The notes under the pieces: generated by a model
Seen by the model: only the letters and a program-made list of their open reading frames with translations
What the model was told of the DNA's origin: nothing
Databases searched by the model: none
DNA from: Gluconobacter cerevisiae
GTDB taxonomy: Bacteria; Pseudomonadota; Alphaproteobacteria; Acetobacterales; Acetobacteraceae
DNA: 64,000 nucleotides
NCBI RefSeq assembly: GCF_015244675.1
Contig: NZ_JABCQO010000001.1
Location: 124,001 to 188,000, forward strand
Direction: 5' to 3'
Made by a program: the position numbers and the translations under genes
Shown here: one piece after another, positions 51,253 through 64,000 of the stretch
Numbering within the stretch: the stretch's first letter is position 1
How the letters are laid out: each line of letters starts with the position of its first letter

Positions 51253-54200
51253 ATGAAAGCCAGATCAGCACCACGTCGGAACATCATGCTTTTCGCCTTT
51301 TCCGCGCTCACCGGGGCCGCTGTCACAGCCCCCACTGGCTCCGCGCAGGCACAGACCGTCAGTGCGTCCCAGGACAGCACTGCCGCCCCCAAACAGACCA
51401 AGTCCCAAAGCCGTGCTGCTACGGGAAAAACATTGACAACCACATCATCGCGCAAGGCGGTGTTGCAAAAAGCCTCCGCAACCGGCGTCAATTCAACCCG
51501 CGCAGAGAGCGTCGTCGTCACGGGCACATTGTTCCACGATAAGAACCTGAGCAGCGCGTCTCCGATCGAACAGATCACCGCCAAACAGCTCCAGCAACGC
51601 GGCATCAAGACCGTGACTGACGCCCTTCAGCTTCTGTCGTCCAACGGTTCCGGCAACCTGACCAACGCCTTCTCCGCAAACGGCGCCTTCGCAGGCGGCG
51701 CATCAGCCCCCTCCCTCCGCGGCCTTCAGACATCCGCAACGCTCGTGATGATGGACGGCATGCGTCTCTCCTACTATCCCGCGGGCGACGATGGGGCGCG
51801 TAACTTCGTTGATACGAACTGGATGCCCGCATCTCTGGTGCAGACCATCGACGTACAGCAGGATGGCGGCTCCGCACTGTACGGTGCTGACGCCGTGGCC
51901 GGCGTCATCAACATGATCACGCGCGAACAGATCAAGGGCTTCGAAGGCAACGCCGAAGGCGGCCTCAATCAGGCTGGATATGGCGGCCATCAGCGTCTTT
52001 ACGCCAATTACGGCGTGGGCGATGTGGAGAAGGATGGCTACAATTTCTATGTCAATTCGGAATATCAGTCCGATGACATGATTACCAACAGCCAGCTCGG
52101 CTATCCTTACAACACCAGCAACCTGACAGGTATCGGCGGCGGCAACGCGGACGGAAACATCCTTGGCCCGGATGGAACATTCAGCAATGCTGTCACGCAG
52201 ACCACAGGCGTCGTGGCCAAAGCCGTCGACAGCAGCGGCAAATCCCTCAGCGGCTATCAGTTACTCAATCCGACTTCAGGCTGTAACGGTTTGTCCGGCG
52301 CACATTCGGGCTATGTAACCGGCACGCCGACAGGTTCCGTCAGCAGCCTGTGCCAGCAGGACACTGTCTCGAAATACAGCGTGATCTCACCTTATGATCG
52401 CCGTGTGGAGGCCACCGCGCATCTCACGGTCAAGCTCGGACCGCGCGCCAAGCTCGTGAGCATGTTCACCTACTCCCAGAACCTGTCTTCCTACACCGGC
52501 ACACCCAGCGCGTTTTACGCCAACACACAGTCGCAGCTCGGAACGAGCAAAGGCGTGCTGGCCCCGGCCTATCTGCCCGACGGCTCCCTGAACCCCAACA
52601 ATCCTTATGCGTCGCTTAACGAAAGCGCACAGCTTTACGGACGTTTCATCGACCCTACAGAGGTCACGCAGTTCTCCCAGAACTATCGCGGCTCCATGCA
52701 TTTGACGGGCTGGGAGTCTTCAAGCTGGGGCGGCGACTGGAACTACGATTCCAGCATGGTCGGCATGAATACCGATCTTTCAACGAAATACGGCAATTAC
52801 ATCAATATTGGCGATCTCAATAATGCGATTGAGAACGGCACCTATAACTTCGTCGATCAGAGCGCCAATTCCACCGCAGCAAAGAACGCCATCGCGCCGA
52901 CAGAAATCGTCCATTCCAAGACGGAAGAATATTCCTGGCAGGCGTCCGTCACCAAGGGGCTCGTCCGACTGCCCGGCGGCATGCTGAACCTCGCGATCGG
53001 AACAAACGTCCGTTACGAAGGCTTCAGCGCGCCAAACGCCAACCCGGTCGACACCACCGACGTCAACAACCAGTACGAAAGCATCAACCCGTTCAGCGCG
53101 ATCGGCCATCGTTACGTCTATTCCGGCTACTTTGAACTGAACGCCCCCATCGTGAAAATGCTGAACGCCGATTTCCAGGGGCGTTACGACTCATATTCCA
53201 CAGGTTTCAGCCATTTTTCTCCAAAAATCGGCGTCACGTTCAAGCCAAGCAAGGAGTTCATGCTCCGTGGGACATGGTCGCAGGGCTTTCAGGTTCCGAG
53301 TTTCTATGAAACCAACGGCACCACCATTGGCTATACGTCCTATGGCCCGTCGAACCTGACCTGGATCAACCAGCATCTGGATGCCAACGGCAGCAAGGAC
53401 AGCTACGCACAGGCTTACAGCCTCGGCGGCCAGAGCGTCGGCAATCCAGACCTCAAACCCATGACAAACAACACCTTCACGGGCGGCCCGGTCTTTCATC
53501 CCTTCCCGTGGATGACGTTCAGCGCGGAATACTGGTATATTCGCGAGAAGAACGTCATCGTCTCCAACCCGACCCCGGCAGCAACCGTGGCGGCGGCCTA
53601 CGAGGCCATGAACACCAACCAGACGGTCATGATCGACGGCAATACCGTCGTCCCGGACATTGCGGACCCGCTGCATCCTGACGCGCCGCGCCGTGCGGGC
53701 ATCATTGAATCGTCCTACATCAACGCCAACAGCATGATGACCGACGGCGTGGATCTCAACCTTTCGATCACCCATCGCCTCCCCGGCCCCCTGAAGATGA
53801 TCAACTGGTACAGCAACGGCCACGCAACATGGGTCCACCGCTTCAACCAGACCATTCCGGGTGTCGGCGTTGAGCGTTTCGCCGGAACCGAAGGCCCGTG
53901 GAACACGACCTCAGCCTCTGGAACGCCCCGCTGGCGCGCCAACTGGCAGAACACCTTCACCTGGAACAAACTCTCAACGACCTTCACCGTCTATTACACC
54001 AGCGGCTATCACGGCACAGCAGAAGACAATGACGGCCCGGGAACAGCCGGAAACTGCAATTACGCCCTGTATCAGAATGTCAGCAGCTTCTATCCGTCCC
54101 AGTGCAATGTCCGCCATTTCTGGGATCTCGACATGACTGTGAACTACCAGTTCAACAAACAATGGGCTGGTTACGTCAACATCTACAATCTGGCCGGTTT

Positions 54201-54312
54201 CAAGGCACCGTATGATTTTGGCACCTATGGATCCTATCTCTACAATTCGTCCTGGGCGCAGAGTGGTGCTTTGGGGCGGGCCTTCCGTTTCGGAGTTACA
54301 GCAACACTGTAA
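51253..54312 (+). CDS. Large TonB-dependent receptor of the GH92 locus
   Basis: A 1019-residue outer-membrane receptor. The signal peptide (FAFSALTGAAVTAPTGSAQA) is followed by a Ser/Thr/Lys-rich linker, a TonB box (ESVVVTG near 95) and a plug (SPIEQITAKQLQQRGIKTVTDALQLL, GSALYGADAVAGVINMITRE). The barrel has long loops and ends in RAFRFGVTATL. No STN domain. It resembles the large receptors of proteobacterial carbohydrate loci rather than siderophore receptors. The next gene starts 6 bases after its stop, so it is likely to import the oligosaccharides released by the GH92 enzymes. Confidence 0.9.
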   Translation: MKARSAPRRNIMLFAFSALTGAAVTAPTGSAQAQTVSASQDSTAAPKQTKSQSRAATGKTLTTTSSRKAVLQKASATGVNSTRAESVVVTGTLFHDKNLSSASPIEQITAKQLQQRGIKTVTDALQLLSSNGSGNLTNAFSANGAFAGGASAPSLRGLQTSATLVMMDGMRLSYYPAGDDGARNFVDTNWMPASLVQTIDVQQDGGSALYGADAVAGVINMITREQIKGFEGNAEGGLNQAGYGGHQRLYANYGVGDVEKDGYNFYVNSEYQSDDMITNSQLGYPYNTSNLTGIGGGNADGNILGPDGTFSNAVTQTTGVVAKAVDSSGKSLSGYQLLNPTSGCNGLSGAHSGYVTGTPTGSVSSLCQQDTVSKYSVISPYDRRVEATAHLTVKLGPRAKLVSMFTYSQNLSSYTGTPSAFYANTQSQLGTSKGVLAPAYLPDGSLNPNNPYASLNESAQLYGRFIDPTEVTQFSQNYRGSMHLTGWESSSWGGDWNYDSSMVGMNTDLSTKYGNYINIGDLNNAIENGTYNFVDQSANSTAAKNAIAPTEIVHSKTEEYSWQASVTKGLVRLPGGMLNLAIGTNVRYEGFSAPNANPVDTTDVNNQYESINPFSAIGHRYVYSGYFELNAPIVKMLNADFQGRYDSYSTGFSHFSPKIGVTFKPSKEFMLRGTWSQGFQVPSFYETNGTTIGYTSYGPSNLTWINQHLDANGSKDSYAQAYSLGGQSVGNPDLKPMTNNTFTGGPVFHPFPWMTFSAEYWYIREKNVIVSNPTPAATVAAAYEAMNTNQTVMIDGNTVVPDIADPLHPDAPRRAGIIESSYINANSMMTDGVDLNLSITHRLPGPLKMINWYSNGHATWVHRFNQTIPGVGVERFAGTEGPWNTTSASGTPRWRANWQNTFTWNKLSTTFTVYYTSGYHGTAEDNDGPGTAGNCNYALYQNVSSFYPSQCNVRHFWDLDMTVNYQFNKQWAGYVNIYNLAGFKAPYDFGTYGSYLYNSSWAQSGALGRAFRFGVTATL

Positions 54313-54318
54313 GGCGTG

Positions 54319-57300
54319 ATGCACAACACAATCAGGCGCTCCTGTTCGCGCACGGCATTCCTCATGGCGATGATCGCCATGGGGGTGCCCCGAGCCTTTT
54401 CGGCCCCCTTCGCGCCCTCCGGCATGGCGGAGGCGTCTGCGCCTTTCGCCCTCCAGTCAGGCTCCGGCCCGGACTGGAGCCTGTCCGATGCGGACGGCCC
54501 CACGAAAAACGAAGTCCTCACGGCCCGTGCCGGAAGCGGCCTGACCGGCCTCCGAACGCTTCGCCTCGACACCACTGCGACAGATCTGCGGACCGTCATC
54601 GCAAAGCCGAACTCCGCCTTTCGCATCAACAGACAGTCGCATCTCACCTACGCCATTTTTCCTGTCGCCGACGCGCTCTCCCTGACGGATGACGCGACAG
54701 ATACCAGCCTCGATATTCTGTTCACCGACGGCACCCGCGCCTCCACACTCGGCGCCCGCGACCTGTCCGGCGCTGCCCTGACAGCACAGGGTCAGGGCGC
54801 AGGACGCGCACTTTATCCCAACCAGTGGACACTCGTGGACGTTCCTCTCGGCAATATTGCCGCAGGCCGGACTGTCGCAGCCGTTGAACTGGCGTCCCAT
54901 GCGCCCAACGGCACAACCCGGCGCGTTTATCTCGATGCCGTCTCCATCGCCGATCGTCCCGATCAGACCGGCCTGACACCCGCCGACCTCGTAGATACGC
55001 GCCGTGGCACCAATGCGAACGGCCATTATTCGCGTGGGAACAATTTTCCCGCCGTGGCGGTCCCGCACGGCTTCAACTTCTGGACGCCCGTGACGCGGGG
55101 CAATTCCAACTGGCTTTACCAGTATCAGGAACGCAACGGCCCCAATAACCATCCGCGCCTCGAAGCCCTCTCTTTAAGCCACGAGCCCAGCCCGTGGATG
55201 GGCGATCGCAATACTTTCCAGATCATGCCCGCTCTCGGACCCGACGCGCCTTCCGCAGATCGAACCGCACGCGTCATCGGCTTCACGCACGATCACGAAA
55301 CCGCCCTGCCCTACCGCTACGCCGTCACGCTGGATAACGGAATCACGGCGGATCTGTCCCCGACCGACCACGCGGCCATCCTGCGTTTCCGCTATCCCGA
55401 CGGCACAACGCGCGGACAGGTCGTGTTCGACAACATCACCAATCAGGGCCGCCTGAAGATCGCTCCGGACGGACGCAGTGCGGACGGCTACACGGATGTC
55501 GCCAGCGACCTCTCCACCGGCGCAAGCCGGATGTATGTCCATCTGGAATTTGACCGTCCCGCCGTCGCACAAGGCCGCCTGACCGGCCAGAAGCGCGACG
55601 ATGTGCAAGCCTGGGCCGCGTTCGACACCACAGCCAACCCCACGGTCACGCTCCGGATCGCAACGTCCCTCATCAGCCTCGATCAGGCGCGATACAATCT
55701 TGCGCTCGAACTGCCGCCCGGCGCCACACTGGAAACAGCCGCCCAGAGCGCGAAAGCCGCGTGGAACAGCAGGCTGGACCGCGTTCAGATCCCCGGCGCA
55801 CCTCTCGACGAGCAGCGCACGCTCTACGGCAACCTCTACCGCCTCTATCTCTACCCCAACAACGCGGCTGAAAATGTCGGCACAATCGATGCACCGCATC
55901 TGCAACATGCCAGCCCGTTCCAGCCGAGAAAGCACCTCGACAGCCCGACGCAAACCGGCGTTCCTGTTCTGGACGGTCCGCTCTACGTCAATAACGGCTT
56001 CTGGGACACGTACCGCACGGCATGGCCCGCTTACGCGCTGCTGACACCCGAGGAAGACGGCCAGTTGATCGACGGCTTCGTCCAGCAATACCGCGAGGGC
56101 GGCTGGATCGCGCGCTGGTCTTCGCCCGGCTATGCCGACCTCATGACCGGAACGAGCGCGGACGTCGCCTTCGCGGACGCCTACGCCAAACATGTCCGCA
56201 ACTTCAATGTCGCAGCCTTCTATCGCGCAGGCCTGAAGGATGCGACCGTCATGCCCGACAATCCGGGCGTGGGCCGCAAGGGCCTCAACCGCTCCATGTT
56301 CCGAGGCTATACCGACACCGATACGGACGAAGCCCTGTCATGGTCCAATGCCGCCACGCTCAATGATTTTGCTCTGGGTGAAATGGCTGTCTCCCTGTCC
56401 GCCGCCGCGCCCGATGCGACAAAAGCCGATTACGCGGCGGAAAGCTGGTATCTGCACAACCGGGCCCTGAACTACGTCCATCTGTTCGACCGGGATGTCG
56501 GGTTTTTCGTTGGTCGCCGCCCGGACGGACAGTGGAGAGTCCCGAAAGAACAGTTCGATCCGCTCGCCTGGGGGGGCGACTATACCGAGACGAACGCCTG
56601 GACCATGGCTTTTGACCCCGTTCAGGACGGGCAGGGACTGGCCAGCCTCTATGGCGGACGCGACGGACTGGCGCACAAACTGGACGCCTATTTCGCAACA
56701 CCCGGCGTCTATCACACCGGCGCCTATGGCGGCGTCATCCACGAAATGCGTGAAATGCACGACATCCGCATGGGCCAGTACAGCCACAGCAACCAGCCCG
56801 CACATCATATCCTCTATCTGTACGACACCGCCGGTCAGCCCTGGAAAGCACAAGATAAAATTCGCGACGTCATGAACCGGCTGTATCGCGGCACGGCGAT
56901 CGGTCAGGGCTATCCGGGCGATGAGGATAACGGCGAAATGTCGGCCTGGTGGGTCTTCAGCGCGGCGGGGTTCTATCCCCTGAGGATGGGCACGCCGACT
57001 TACGCCATCGGCGCGCCGCGCTTTGAGACCATGCGCCTGACGCTCGGAAAAGGACACATCCTGACAGTCCGGGCACCCGGTATCAGCGACCGCAATCGCT
57101 TCGTCCAGTCCGTCAGCCTGAACGGCAAACCGCTCACGCGCTGGTGGCTGGACCATGACGACATCGCGGACGGAGGCGACCTGCTGTTCCGCATGGGGCC
57201 GCATCCGTCGCACTGGGGAACAGCGCCAGAAGCGTCGCTGCCCTCCCTGACTCCCGCCGGGCACAGTCCTGACCCCGCGATCGATCTGACCGATATCGCC

Positions 57301-57669
57301 GGAGCGACGCATACCGGATCGGAGGCGCTATTCGACAATGACGCCCTGACTTCCGCTTCCATCGGAACCACGGACGTCACCGTCACCCTCCCTGCCGGAG
57401 CTTCCGCGCTTGCCTATACGCTCACCTCCACCGACATGCCCGGCCATGCTCCGTCCGCATGGGACGTACTGGCTTCGGATGACGGAAAGACATGGCAGAA
57501 AATCGACCATCGCGAGAACGAAACATTTCCATGGAAACACCAGACACGCCCGTTCCTTCTCCCCGACCGTTCGCCACACAGACTGTATCGCTGGCATGTG
57601 CTCCAGCCGACTTCTGCCGAGGCTGGAGAGTTTGAACTGCTGGGCCACACGCAGCCCTCGTCACCCTGA
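54319..57669 (+). CDS. Secreted GH92 family glycosidase with Gln in the general-acid position
   Basis: A 1116-residue multidomain enzyme. After the signal peptide, residues ~55-215 are a beta-rich N-terminal domain (TLRLDTTATDLRTVI to YLDAVSIAD), ~220-950 the GH92 catalytic region (DLVDTRRGTNANGHYSRGNNFPAVAVPHG; PGDEDNGEMSAWWVFSAAGFYPL at 866-886), and ~995-1115 an F5/8-type (CBM32-like) domain. In the motif usually written GNEP this protein has H-S-N-Q826-P, so the general acid Glu is Gln. GH92 members are Ca-dependent alpha-mannosidases; a Gln variant is known to cleave mannose-1-phosphate diesters. An alternative GTG start lies three bases upstream. Confidence 0.9.
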   Translation: MHNTIRRSCSRTAFLMAMIAMGVPRAFSAPFAPSGMAEASAPFALQSGSGPDWSLSDADGPTKNEVLTARAGSGLTGLRTLRLDTTATDLRTVIAKPNSAFRINRQSHLTYAIFPVADALSLTDDATDTSLDILFTDGTRASTLGARDLSGAALTAQGQGAGRALYPNQWTLVDVPLGNIAAGRTVAAVELASHAPNGTTRRVYLDAVSIADRPDQTGLTPADLVDTRRGTNANGHYSRGNNFPAVAVPHGFNFWTPVTRGNSNWLYQYQERNGPNNHPRLEALSLSHEPSPWMGDRNTFQIMPALGPDAPSADRTARVIGFTHDHETALPYRYAVTLDNGITADLSPTDHAAILRFRYPDGTTRGQVVFDNITNQGRLKIAPDGRSADGYTDVASDLSTGASRMYVHLEFDRPAVAQGRLTGQKRDDVQAWAAFDTTANPTVTLRIATSLISLDQARYNLALELPPGATLETAAQSAKAAWNSRLDRVQIPGAPLDEQRTLYGNLYRLYLYPNNAAENVGTIDAPHLQHASPFQPRKHLDSPTQTGVPVLDGPLYVNNGFWDTYRTAWPAYALLTPEEDGQLIDGFVQQYREGGWIARWSSPGYADLMTGTSADVAFADAYAKHVRNFNVAAFYRAGLKDATVMPDNPGVGRKGLNRSMFRGYTDTDTDEALSWSNAATLNDFALGEMAVSLSAAAPDATKADYAAESWYLHNRALNYVHLFDRDVGFFVGRRPDGQWRVPKEQFDPLAWGGDYTETNAWTMAFDPVQDGQGLASLYGGRDGLAHKLDAYFATPGVYHTGAYGGVIHEMREMHDIRMGQYSHSNQPAHHILYLYDTAGQPWKAQDKIRDVMNRLYRGTAIGQGYPGDEDNGEMSAWWVFSAAGFYPLRMGTPTYAIGAPRFETMRLTLGKGHILTVRAPGISDRNRFVQSVSLNGKPLTRWWLDHDDIADGGDLLFRMGPHPSHWGTAPEASLPSLTPAGHSPDPAIDLTDIAGATHTGSEALFDNDALTSASIGTTDVTVTLPAGASALAYTLTSTDMPGHAPSAWDVLASDDGKTWQKIDHRENETFPWKHQTRPFLLPDRSPHRLYRWHVLQPTSAEAGEFELLGHTQPSSP

Positions 57670-57699
57670 AAGTCTTATTTTCCGGAGCCCCAAGCCCTT

Positions 57700-59997
57700 A
57701 TGTCGCTTTCCACACTCACCCGAAGCCTTTTGGCCGCAACCCTCCTGTCCGGAACGGCTTTCCTGCCCGTCCATGCCCAGACCATACCGCAGCCACAAGG
57801 CTCTCCCGCCTCTGCGGTAGATCCGCGCATCGGAACCGGAGGGGCCGGACATACCTATCCGGGTGCCACCGTGCCGTTCGGCATGATCCAGCTCTCTCCC
57901 GATACCGCGATGACGGATTTTCATCACGCCTATGCCTGGGCGGCGGGCTACCAGTATGACGACCCAACGATTATGGGCTTCTCGCATACCCATTTCTCGG
58001 GCGCGGGCCATTCCGATCTCGGCGACGTTCTGGTGATGCCGATTGCGGGCGACGTGCGGCTGGAGCCCGGCGATGCCGCGGTGCCGGAAAGCGGATACCG
58101 CTCCCGCTTCCGCCATGCCACGGAAGTGGAAACTCCGGGCTATTACGCCGTCACGCTCGACGATTACAAAATTCGCGCCGAACTGAGCGCCTCCCGCCGC
58201 GTCGGCTGGCATCGCTATACGTTCCCCAAAGGCCAACCCGCCCATCTGCTGCTGGACCTGCGACCCAGCATCTACGACTATCCGGGCAAGGTTCTGTGGG
58301 CGCGCCTGCATGTTGCCGCCGATGGCACGGTCTCGGGCTGCCGGACGACGCGGGGCTGGGCGCCGGGGCGGACCCTGTGTTTTGCCATGCGTTTTTCAAA
58401 ACCCATGACGGAACGCACGCTCTATAATCGCGAAACGAAAGTGGCGTATCGCGGCTTCAGTGGACCCGGAAACCACCCTGTCGATCATGAGGCGCAGAAT
58501 GGCCGCGAACTGGAAGGCGTGTTCGATTTCGGACGTCTGAAAGAGCCGCTCCTCGTCAAAACCTCCATCTCCCCGGTCAGCGAAGAAAACGCCGTCGTCA
58601 ATCTCGACAGCGAAGGACAGGGCTGGGATTTCGACGCACAGCACAACACGGCTCTGGGCGCATGGAACAAGGCCCTGTCGGTCATCGACATGCAGGGCAC
58701 GCCGGATCAGCGGACGCAGTTTTATACCGCGCTCTATCACGTCATGCTGGCCCCCACGCTCAGCATGGATGCCAACGGCGACTTCACCGGCCCTGACTAT
58801 CAGCGTCACCGCGCGGACGGGTTCGAGTTCTACTCCACATGGTCAATGTGGGACGTTTACCGCGCGCAACAGCCGCTTCTGGCCATCCTGCGCCCCGATA
58901 TGAGTTCGCATTTCATCCGCTCGCTCATCGCGTCCCAGCAGACCAGTCCGTTCGGCCTGCTGCCGGTCTGGGCATATCAGGGCCTCGAGACCTGGTGCAT
59001 GATCGGCTATCACGCCGTCCCGGTCATTGCGGATGCGTATCTGGCGGGCGTGCGCGGCTTCGATGCCGACGCAGCCCTCAAAAGCATGATCCGCAGCGCA
59101 ACCTACGGACCTTACGGCGACCTGACCGACTACATGAAAATCGGCTACGTCCCGATCGACAAAGAGCCCGAGGGCGCCTCCAAGACGCTGGAATACGCCT
59201 ATGACGACTGGGCACTGGCCCGCATGGCGCGCGCGATGGGTAAAACCGATGTGGCGCGCACATTCGAAAAGCGCTCCGACAACTGGCGGAAGGTCTGGGA
59301 CCCCGAAACGCGCTTCATGCGCGCCCGCACGTCCTCAGGCGCGTTCCACACGCCCTTCACCCCGGCCGCCGCCGCTTATGGAAGCGACTATACCGAAGGC
59401 AATGCCTGGCAGTATTCTTGGTATGTGCCGCAGAATATTCCGGGCCTGATAAAGGTCTTGGGCGGGCGTGAAAAATTCACGTCACGGATCGACGAACTGT
59501 TCGACACGAAGGTCGATCCTGCGATTTTCAAGAATGTCGAAGACATTAGCGGTCTGATCGGCTGGTATGCACATGGCAACGAGCCCGATCATCATGTCGC
59601 CTATCTGTATGATTATGCAGGTGCGCCATGGAAAACGCAGCAGCGCCTGACACAGATCATGCAGACACAATACGCCCTGCGCCCCGACGGTCTGGCGGGC
59701 AATGACGACCTGGGCCAGATGTCGGCATGGTATCTATTCACGGCCATGGGCTTCTATCCTGTCGCCCCGGCCAGTCAGGAATATGCAATCGGTCGGCCCT
59801 TCGTCTCCCGCGCCGTCATGCATCTGGGCAACGGACATGATTTCACGGTCACAGCCGACAATCTGGACGACGCCCATCCTTATGTTGGCAAAATGACGCT
59901 CAACGGTCAGCCCCTGAGCACTCCGTTCCTGCATCAGCAGGACGTTCTCGCAGGCGGCGAACTGCACTTCGTGATGCAGGCCCAGCCGCCAGCATAG
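57700..59997 (+). CDS. Secreted GH92 alpha-mannosidase
   Basis: A 765-residue enzyme with a signal peptide (LLAATLLSGTAFLPVHA). It has the two-domain GH92 core: VDPRIGTGGAGHTYPGATVPFGMIQLSPD at the start, GFSHTHFSGAGHSDLGD, YAHGNEPDHHVAYLYDYAG with catalytic-acid candidate E628, and LAGNDDLGQMSAWYLFTAMGFYPV with D669/D670 as base candidates. This is the standard exo-alpha-mannosidase arrangement; linkage (1,2, 1,3 or 1,6) cannot be read reliably. It follows the first GH92 gene by 30 bases. Confidence 0.94.
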   Translation: MSLSTLTRSLLAATLLSGTAFLPVHAQTIPQPQGSPASAVDPRIGTGGAGHTYPGATVPFGMIQLSPDTAMTDFHHAYAWAAGYQYDDPTIMGFSHTHFSGAGHSDLGDVLVMPIAGDVRLEPGDAAVPESGYRSRFRHATEVETPGYYAVTLDDYKIRAELSASRRVGWHRYTFPKGQPAHLLLDLRPSIYDYPGKVLWARLHVAADGTVSGCRTTRGWAPGRTLCFAMRFSKPMTERTLYNRETKVAYRGFSGPGNHPVDHEAQNGRELEGVFDFGRLKEPLLVKTSISPVSEENAVVNLDSEGQGWDFDAQHNTALGAWNKALSVIDMQGTPDQRTQFYTALYHVMLAPTLSMDANGDFTGPDYQRHRADGFEFYSTWSMWDVYRAQQPLLAILRPDMSSHFIRSLIASQQTSPFGLLPVWAYQGLETWCMIGYHAVPVIADAYLAGVRGFDADAALKSMIRSATYGPYGDLTDYMKIGYVPIDKEPEGASKTLEYAYDDWALARMARAMGKTDVARTFEKRSDNWRKVWDPETRFMRARTSSGAFHTPFTPAAAAYGSDYTEGNAWQYSWYVPQNIPGLIKVLGGREKFTSRIDELFDTKVDPAIFKNVEDISGLIGWYAHGNEPDHHVAYLYDYAGAPWKTQQRLTQIMQTQYALRPDGLAGNDDLGQMSAWYLFTAMGFYPVAPASQEYAIGRPFVSRAVMHLGNGHDFTVTADNLDDAHPYVGKMTLNGQPLSTPFLHQQDVLAGGELHFVMQAQPPA

Positions 59998-63422: not shown

Positions 63423-63935
63423 TCACGGAGCTTCCCCGGACGCCGGATCGAAATGAAACGTCGGTTTTGACTGACCCGAAACGGGAGCAGCCGGTGAAGT
63501 GCTCGGGGGCACACTCGGCGTTGTTGCACCCGGCGGCCGAGATGCTGCCTGAGAAGAATGTTTCGCAAAAACCGGAGCGAGATGCCGCACGCTTTGCCCG
63601 CGTTTGAGAGTTACTCCGCCCGCACTGATCTCCACGATGCTCCAGTCGCTCACTTTGTCACCGGCAGCCACGACCTTGCCGCGGCTCCCGGAAGCGCCGG
63701 TCCTGATGATTGCCCGCCATCCTCCCGGATGCCCAGAAATCCCCACAACCTGCGGCTCACCCGCCTGCACAGCGCCCCTGCCCTTTGGCTGGCGGTCAGG
63801 CTCGAACAAAGGATGTGCCAGAATGGAGTCAACATCGATCCTCTGAGGCTCCTTTTGGGGTTGAGCATAGGCATGCCCCATCAGCAGAAAACTGCCAAAC
63901 AGACCGGCGTAAGACGTTCGTGCCAATATCGTCAT
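63423..63935 (-). CDS. GspN/GspC-like type II secretion-associated protein
   Basis: A 170-residue exported protein: signal segment (AGLFGSFLLMGHAYA), then LAHPLFEPDRQPKGRG, a pattern typical of GspN/GspC-like secretion proteins, and a short beta domain (EPQVVGISGHPGGWRAIIRTG, KVVAAGDKVSDWSIVEISAGGVTLKRG). The C-terminal 45 residues are Pro/Ser/Ala-rich and disordered. The ATG at 63935 has AGAGGGA about 11 bases upstream. The rest of the secretion operon would lie beyond the window edge; such a system could export the enzymes encoded to the left. Confidence 0.7.
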   Translation of the reverse strand: MTILARTSYAGLFGSFLLMGHAYAQPQKEPQRIDVDSILAHPLFEPDRQPKGRGAVQAGEPQVVGISGHPGGWRAIIRTGASGSRGKVVAAGDKVSDWSIVEISAGGVTLKRGQSVRHLAPVFAKHSSQAASRPPGATTPSVPPSTSPAAPVSGQSKPTFHFDPASGEAP

Positions 63936-64000
63936 GAAACATCTTCCCTCTGATCTGACCGGATTGGTCGCCGTCATGTTCTTACTCTCCGGCGGGAGCA

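Follow-up and report, generated by a model that had tools for sequence, protein, structure and literature searches.

A conserved three-gene TonB receptor-GH92 cassette in Gluconobacter is a candidate minimal locus for alpha-mannoside scavenging

Introduction

The loci with which Bacteroides species forage on yeast mannan and N-glycans carry a TonB-type porter, and Xanthomonas has an N-glycan cluster that may be counted among the kin of the gene set considered here. This set is a co-directional run of three genes, encoding a TonB-dependent receptor followed by two proteins of glycoside hydrolase family 92 (GH92A and GH92B), at positions 51253-59997 of a 64,000-nucleotide stretch of Gluconobacter cerevisiae DNA (NCBI RefSeq assembly GCF_015244675.1, contig NZ_JABCQO010000001.1, positions 124,001 to 188,000 of the forward strand), hereafter called the window. 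According to the available part of PMC10154615, Bacteroides mannan breakdown employs enzymes of families GH76, GH99, GH38, GH125 and GH92, and in the loci for yeast mannan and high-mannose N-glycans, as proposed here for the cassette, exo-acting alpha-1,2- and alpha-1,3-specific GH92 enzymes work on imported glycan. In contrast to those loci, the Gluconobacter cassette has beside it no SusD, no surface GH99/GH76 or GH18, no GH38, no GH125 and no regulator.

TonB receptor and GH92 genes also share a single co-directional run in other Alphaproteobacteria. Such a run was seen in four of nine GH92 neighbourhoods and in none of the other five, a proportion that is no fair sample because the nine (seven of them alphaproteobacterial) were picked by hand from 74 public records. 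All four runs lie on plasmids, where they are accompanied by GH2, GH3, GH125 and a fucosidase in Asticcacaulis sp. DW145 (a 760-residue unnamed protein comes after this GH92), by iol genes in Novosphingobium capsulatum and Sphingomonas parapaucimobilis, and by GH88 in S. sanxanigenens. They differ from the cassette in having extra enzymes, a regulator nearby and one annotated GH92 per stretch shown, and the N. capsulatum receptor, the one of the four compared, belongs to another subfamily than the cassette receptor (27%, over the plug only).

An earlier, sequence-only reading of the window had called the locus distinct and possibly undescribed. To the extent that no publication on such a locus in acetic acid bacteria appeared among the titles and abstract openings listed, a coverage that most subscription papers fall outside, this description stands; the cassette is nevertheless present in public Gluconobacter genomes, and TonB/GH92 loci are annotated in the Alphaproteobacteria just listed. 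To us it seems a pared-down version of sugar-foraging loci already known, and not a new kind of system. The cassette is a real, conserved and compact unit, and we hold, with somewhat more than even confidence, that it serves as a minimal alpha-mannoside scavenging cassette.

Results

The receptor gene (51253-54312, forward strand) encodes 1019 residues with the plug (PF07715, E = 4.7e-17, residues 100-218) and barrel (PF00593, E = 5.5e-30, residues 473-980) of a TonB-dependent receptor, and a TonB-box-like motif, ESVVVTG, is visible by eye at residues 85-91. Three bases later on the same strand begins GH92A (54316-57669), which has 1117 residues when read from the GTG at 54316, or 1116 residues and a gap of six bases when read from the ATG at 54319, and after another 30 bases follows GH92B (57700-59997, forward strand, 765 residues). 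Both GH92 proteins exceed the curated Pfam cut-offs for the GH92N and GH92 catalytic domains (E values from 3.6e-42 to 2e-169), and a genome-wide search found no other GH92 match in the 3.0-Mb, 40-contig genome that contains the window (G000 below, where other G-numbers denote comparison genomes). By gene order and gaps, the receptor gene would form one operon with the glycosidase genes; promoter and terminator scans of the region fell near the shuffled mean (4 versus 3.2; 11 versus 8.3) and are uninformative on this point. All three N-termini are signal-peptide-like, as judged by eye and with no predictor, and neither enzyme has a lipoprotein-type cysteine (GH92A has one cysteine, at residue 10, and GH92B none in its first 45 residues). 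The sequence-only reading had placed a 1116-residue GH92 protein within six bases of the receptor gene and a 765-residue one 30 bases further on, had called all three products exported, and had seen no mannose transporter or regulator adjacent to them; the open reading frames and Pfam domains, the N-termini and the neighbouring genes described below agree with it on each count.

The substrate linkage of GH92A, a predicted exported exo-alpha-1,2-mannosidase, can be argued from a close relative of solved structure. A phmmer comparison matches it to PDB entry 7nsn with 1064 bits over residues 45-1112, the next enzymes scoring about 428 bits. This entry is NnGH92 of Neobacillus novalis. According to the available part of PMC10167667, NnGH92 is an alpha-1,2-mannosidase built from a CBM-like domain, a pair of CBM32 domains and a helix bundle, and the residues named there are Trp477, His996-Glu997, Glu944 and Asp1058; the +1 triad and the catalytic pair of GH92 are also described in PMC5930347. 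By the 7nsn alignment the counterparts in GH92A are W294, H809 and E810 for the triad and E758 for the general acid, whereas the general base, D871, was positioned through BT3990. None of the five residues varies across the 56 GH92A rows that were aligned; 53 of these rows are distinct, and the 56 are what remained of 91 after Actinobacteria had been thinned. Because the triad and the catalytic pair match those of NnGH92 and are invariant in these rows, we regard the predicted alpha-1,2 specificity as well supported at the sequence level.

GH92A also shares with NnGH92 the order of a CBM-like domain, the GH92 part and a C-terminal CBM32. Its N-terminal domain (approximately residues 45-220, 54448-54975) aligns with the CBM-like domain, whose limits are taken from the available part of PMC10167667, and is followed by the catalytic part (54988-57201; Pfam GH92N at residues 225-451 and GH92 at 457-962). 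The C-terminal CBM32-like domain (core residues 1004-1095, 57325-57600) was located by alignment to 7nsn, whose main match covers it; it aligns in addition to the N-terminal CBM32 of NnGH92 with 18 bits, and has no Pfam call at E 0.001. Unlike NnGH92, GH92A has, by length and alignment, neither the N-terminal CBM32 insertion nor a four-helix bundle at the C-terminus, and its gene comes after a TonB receptor gene.

GH92B, likewise a predicted exported exo-alpha-mannosidase, finds its best solved relatives in 6f91 (BT3965, 584 bits), 7zgm (B035DRAFT_03340, 565 bits) and 6f8z (BT3130, 546 bits), with which it has the catalytic and -1 residues in common. The general acid is E566 and the general base D670, D385, W424 and M434 are also present, and the acid, base and -1 residues are kept in all ten Acetobacteraceae rows aligned, a set that includes the window and was drawn from 14 B-type matches plus the window. 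The +1 loops, in contrast, differ from those of all three relatives. The loop before the acid is short, and the +1 places hold G103-H104 and E614-D615, so that the alpha-1,2 signature of a Trp and a His-Glu pair is absent. The signature of the BT3965 type is likewise incomplete, in that the P520/W526 loop is missing and E614-D615 takes the place of H577-D578; Tyr45 of BT3965 does align with Y78. The clade of the nearest solved relatives is mostly alpha-1,3-specific or mixed, BT3965 is an alpha-1,4-mannosidase, and alpha-1,4-mannosides have been noted in fungal walls and glycosylphosphatidylinositol (GPI) anchors (PMC5930347). The enzyme in 7zgm, according to the available part of PMC9522356, is active on alpha-1,3-mannobiose only and takes alpha-1,3-mannose off plant N-glycans, and the same part reports that two alpha-1,3-specific GH92 enzymes have no +1 residues in common. 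The likeliest linkage for GH92B would be alpha-1,3, with alpha-1,4 as an alternative that may apply, and the former is just a best guess because the +1 site differs from that of every solved relative. AlphaFold models made on four-row alignments had a mean predicted local distance difference test (pLDDT) score of 34.5 for GH92B and 23.9 for the receptor.

Separately, we observed relatives of GH92B (42%, 41% and 32%) directly beside inositol catabolism genes on plasmids of Novosphingobium, Sphingomonas and Asticcacaulis (L196:6999-18042, L197:5650-18943 and L201:13938-23815), with a TonB receptor in two of these stretches.

Of 397 Acetobacteraceae genomes, 23 have a GH92 match, that of the window being among them, and in nine of 26 Gluconobacter genomes such a match exceeds the cut-off. 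A search for the three-gene order in other Acetobacteraceae, which the sequence-only reading had suggested, succeeded in part: receptor, A and B stand in this order in six of the 26 Gluconobacter genomes (G000, G402, G398, G323, G404 and G397), whereas other genera show the A-B pair without such a receptor in the stretches fetched. Among these stretches, a receptor of the same subfamily stands beside the pair in Gluconobacter only, although in G048 just about 0.5 kb upstream of A was within reach. Among public genomes, those of G. kondonii, G. aidae and G. potus contain the same cassette, and the nearest named locus, that of G. kondonii NBRC 3266, is 98% identical in the receptor, 95% in GH92A and 98% in GH92B. 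Ratios of nonsynonymous to synonymous substitution (dN/dS, Nei-Gojobori) range from 0.025 to 0.171 in all 15 gene comparisons of the window with five other copies. The flanks are less uniform: thiC and a peroxidase gene border the cassette in the window and in G. kondonii, in G. aidae the upstream neighbour is a very long frame of at least 2228 residues, and G323 has another large frame upstream, which runs off the end of the stretch; G398 and G404 have other downstream genes, their contigs ending just upstream of the cassette.

Three further genomes carry variants of the arrangement. In G353 the receptor that adjoins A and B belongs to the same subfamily but is divergent (52%), and in G403 the A-B pair has no close receptor (best match 95 bits). 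In G405 the neighbour of a divergent receptor is a GH92B-like gene broken into two frames that overlap (L155:10956-13249); the gene may be decaying, or the sequence may be in error.

The strongest argument for a common role of receptor and enzymes comes from two separate linkages. In a tree of GH92A, G353 groups with G048 and G025, which belong to other genera, and stands apart from the cassette clade. In a tree of 26 receptors, comprising 25 of the 26 strong matches and an outgroup, the eight GH92-linked receptors need two label changes, and the starred branches force two, the linked receptors forming two separate clades of one subfamily. Two different GH92 loci are therefore joined to two members of one receptor subfamily in a setting where the genome encodes 33 receptor genes, and this argues for a role that the receptor and the GH92 enzymes share. 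The Oleiagrimonas GH92A, placed as sister to the Acetobacteraceae clade on a long branch that makes its placement unsure, has a TonB receptor directly downstream, which is not close to the cassette receptor (33% over 168 residues).

We also noted a same-looking 538-residue dihydroxyacetone-kinase-like gene (by eye) both beside the receptor-less A-B pair of G403 and beside a GH92-less receptor in G400 (L167:4259-5875 and L154:10944-12560), as if one ancestral locus had shed different parts.

Pfam identifies the gene on one side of the cassette as thiC; past the other end come genes for a di-haem peroxidase and a phosphoesterase. There is no SusC/SusD pair, since only the three cassette genes, none of them SusD, lie between thiC and the peroxidase gene. 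A type II secretion system (T2SS) cluster of about 10 kb, with GspE, F, D, M and K-like proteins, a prepilin peptidase and prepilin-like proteins, lies at approximately 188.0-198.4 kb of contig C1 and starts about 4 kb past the cassette (window 63423-64000, then L190:1483-11901). Beside it a 184-residue open reading frame (63423-63977) has no Pfam match, and the phosphoesterase between the cassette and the cluster looks exported. This proximity would suit a model, to our minds unlikely but the strongest competitor of the scavenging reading, in which both GH92 enzymes leave the cell through this T2SS and trim yeast surface mannan while the receptor collects the products. GspD, however, exceeds its cut-off in nine of the 26 Gluconobacter genomes, namely in three of the six with the cassette and in six without it. 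It is missing from the cassette genomes G404, G323 (which has just a 26-bit match) and G397, absences judged on draft genomes listed as 99% complete, and a nearby T2SS as a defining part of the locus is weakened accordingly. The nearness of the cluster may also be an accident of the cassette's position, because the flanks differ between copies. Lacking both GspD and a lipobox, Sec-exported enzymes should stay periplasmic in these three genomes, with the receptor as a plausible route of entry, and the periplasm is most likely where the GH92 enzymes work.

The other enzymes encoded in these genomes constrain what the cassette could accomplish. No endo-enzyme lies beside it, GH125 is found in none of the 26 Gluconobacter genomes, and GH38 exceeds the cut-off in none of them (G405 has one 20-bit match). 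A complete yeast-mannan system, comprising an endo-mannanase and backbone exo-enzymes, was not found at the cassette, the searches not having included GH99, GH18, GH85 or peptide:N-glycanase (PNGase). With no endo-enzyme, GH125 or GH38, the cassette alone would therefore trim ends only and cannot digest yeast mannan. This limits the proposal, made in the sequence-only reading, of a locus for foraging on yeast mannan or N-glycans, of which the exported alpha-mannosidases and the TonB receptor in one conserved unit remain. As to the released sugar, the C-terminal domain of type I mannose-6-phosphate isomerase was not found in the genome, which does have a PF01050 (MannoseP_isomer) frame of 180 bits.

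A strong GH76 gene (122.6 bits) is present in G000 on contig C8, unlinked to the cassette. Matches to GH76 pass E 0.001 in 24 of the 26 Gluconobacter genomes and the cut-off in 18, and scores above 100 bits occur in G323, G279, G339 and G000 only, the G279 copy having an internal stop. We did not count the remaining matches as GH76, given that they score at most 27 bits over a short part of a longer frame, or 35 bits with neighbouring stretches. The closest solved relative of the strong gene is the fungal CtGH76 (86 bits), which the available part of PMC12295086 places beside the fungal Dfg5 subfamily. Two stretches of Novosphingobium resinovorum, considered for relatives of GH76 and PI-PLC, carry no annotation and were left aside. 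Around this gene (L178:980-14792) we found a ROK regulator, an ABC permease, a ROK kinase, an IolE-like enzyme, a solute-binding protein, a TonB-Xanth-Caul (TIGR01782) receptor, a fusion of phosphatidylinositol-specific phospholipase C (PI-PLC) with histidine phosphatase, and an IolG-like oxidoreductase, and the same run of frames recurs in G323, G279 and G339. The locus looks like one for foraging on GPI or phosphoinositol glycans.

Discussion

If the cassette scavenges alpha-mannosides, the TonB receptor would admit short glycans or glycopeptides that are rich in mannose and have come off yeast mannoprotein or eukaryotic N-glycans. In the periplasm, GH92A would cut terminal alpha-1,2-mannose and GH92B would then remove the next mannose, probably alpha-1,3-linked. 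The free mannose might be oxidised in the periplasm, or it might be imported, after which general enzymes with genes elsewhere in the genome would channel it into fructose 6-phosphate. Yeast mannan, high-mannose N-glycans and other alpha-mannosides are not separable by sequence as the natural glycan.

A number of observations weigh against this reading. The +1 site of GH92B is unlike that of any of its three solved relatives, no endo-enzyme accompanies the cassette, no inner-membrane transporter or regulator is found among its neighbours (thiC, peroxidase and phosphoesterase), and the GspD absences that favour a periplasmic site come from draft genomes. In the set of 397 Acetobacteraceae genomes, 11 carry an A-type gene; B is adjacent to it in five of these (G000, G323, G353, G025 and G048), and because B-type genes lie on other contigs in the other six, the A-B pair is not obligatory. 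The remaining points concern the receptor. Receptors of the TIGR01782 type are common, not obligatory, in TonB-linked carbohydrate utilisation loci, and the cassette receptor has no match to TIGR01782 in NCBIfam, where a different receptor of the same genome scores 528 bits; we therefore dropped it as a member of a recognised carbohydrate class, and its earlier description as being of carbohydrate-locus type does not hold. In NCBIfam and the PDB it comes closest to CirA, BtuB, FepA and haem receptors, a resemblance that resides mostly in the plug. The receptor tree was made quickly and some of its branches are flagged as long, and 17 of its rows are not beside GH92 and have mixed neighbours or none that are consistent: these relatives adjoin a PepSY_TM protein, another receptor, or (by eye) transposase, pump or housekeeping genes, and three sphingomonad relatives have other neighbours again. 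Lichenicola cladoniae and Gluconobacter sphaericus even carry members of the subfamily (47%) on plasmids, surrounded by insertion sequences and transposases (L205:9211-11982 and L206:8257-11322). Because the subfamily occurs without GH92 in such places, the substrate of the receptor need not be a glycan.

The observations on the receptor are what one would expect if it were an orphan transporter of the siderophore or cofactor type that shares the operon incidentally, given its CirA-, BtuB-, FepA- and haem-type neighbours, the PepSY_TM protein beside one relative and the unrelated genes beside others. We nonetheless think this doubtful, for one receptor subfamily is linked to GH92 on two separate occasions despite the many receptor genes available, and the receptor-A-B order persists in six species with differing flanks and low dN/dS.

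A broader possibility, which we judge improbable, is a two-module dismantling of fungal mannoproteins, in which the GH92 cassette would strip alpha-1,2- and alpha-1,3-mannose and the unlinked C8 locus would release and eat the GPI or phosphoinositol-mannose core; if true, a bacterium that lives with yeasts would have a pathway for foraging on GPI anchors. That the cassette and the GH76/PI-PLC locus travel as a pair is an idea we rejected, since both are present in two genomes (G000 and G323), the cassette alone in four and the strong GH76 alone in two. It is very improbable that the cassette itself is aimed at mannosyl-inositol glycans, for instance fungal GPI anchors or the head groups of mannosyl-inositol sphingolipids, instead of mannan or an N-glycan. 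In favour of such a target, the best-scoring solved relative of GH92B is the alpha-1,4-mannosidase BT3965, relatives at 41-42% accompany a TonB receptor and iol genes in N. capsulatum and S. parapaucimobilis, and G000 has the locus with PI-PLC/phosphatase, GH76 and IolE/IolG-like proteins, but GH92B departs from BT3965 in the P520/W526 loop and at H577-D578, the GH76/PI-PLC locus is on another contig and occurs in two of six cassette genomes and in two without the cassette, and the cassette receptor is unlike that of N. capsulatum.

The scavenging of alpha-mannosides adds no new mechanism to those known. If this reading is true, some Gluconobacter species draw food from mannose-rich coats on the yeasts or plants that surround them. 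This would be a concrete trophic link in fermentations, on fruit and in insect guts, and the cassette would offer a simple system of three genes in which to ask how few parts suffice for foraging on alpha-mannosides.

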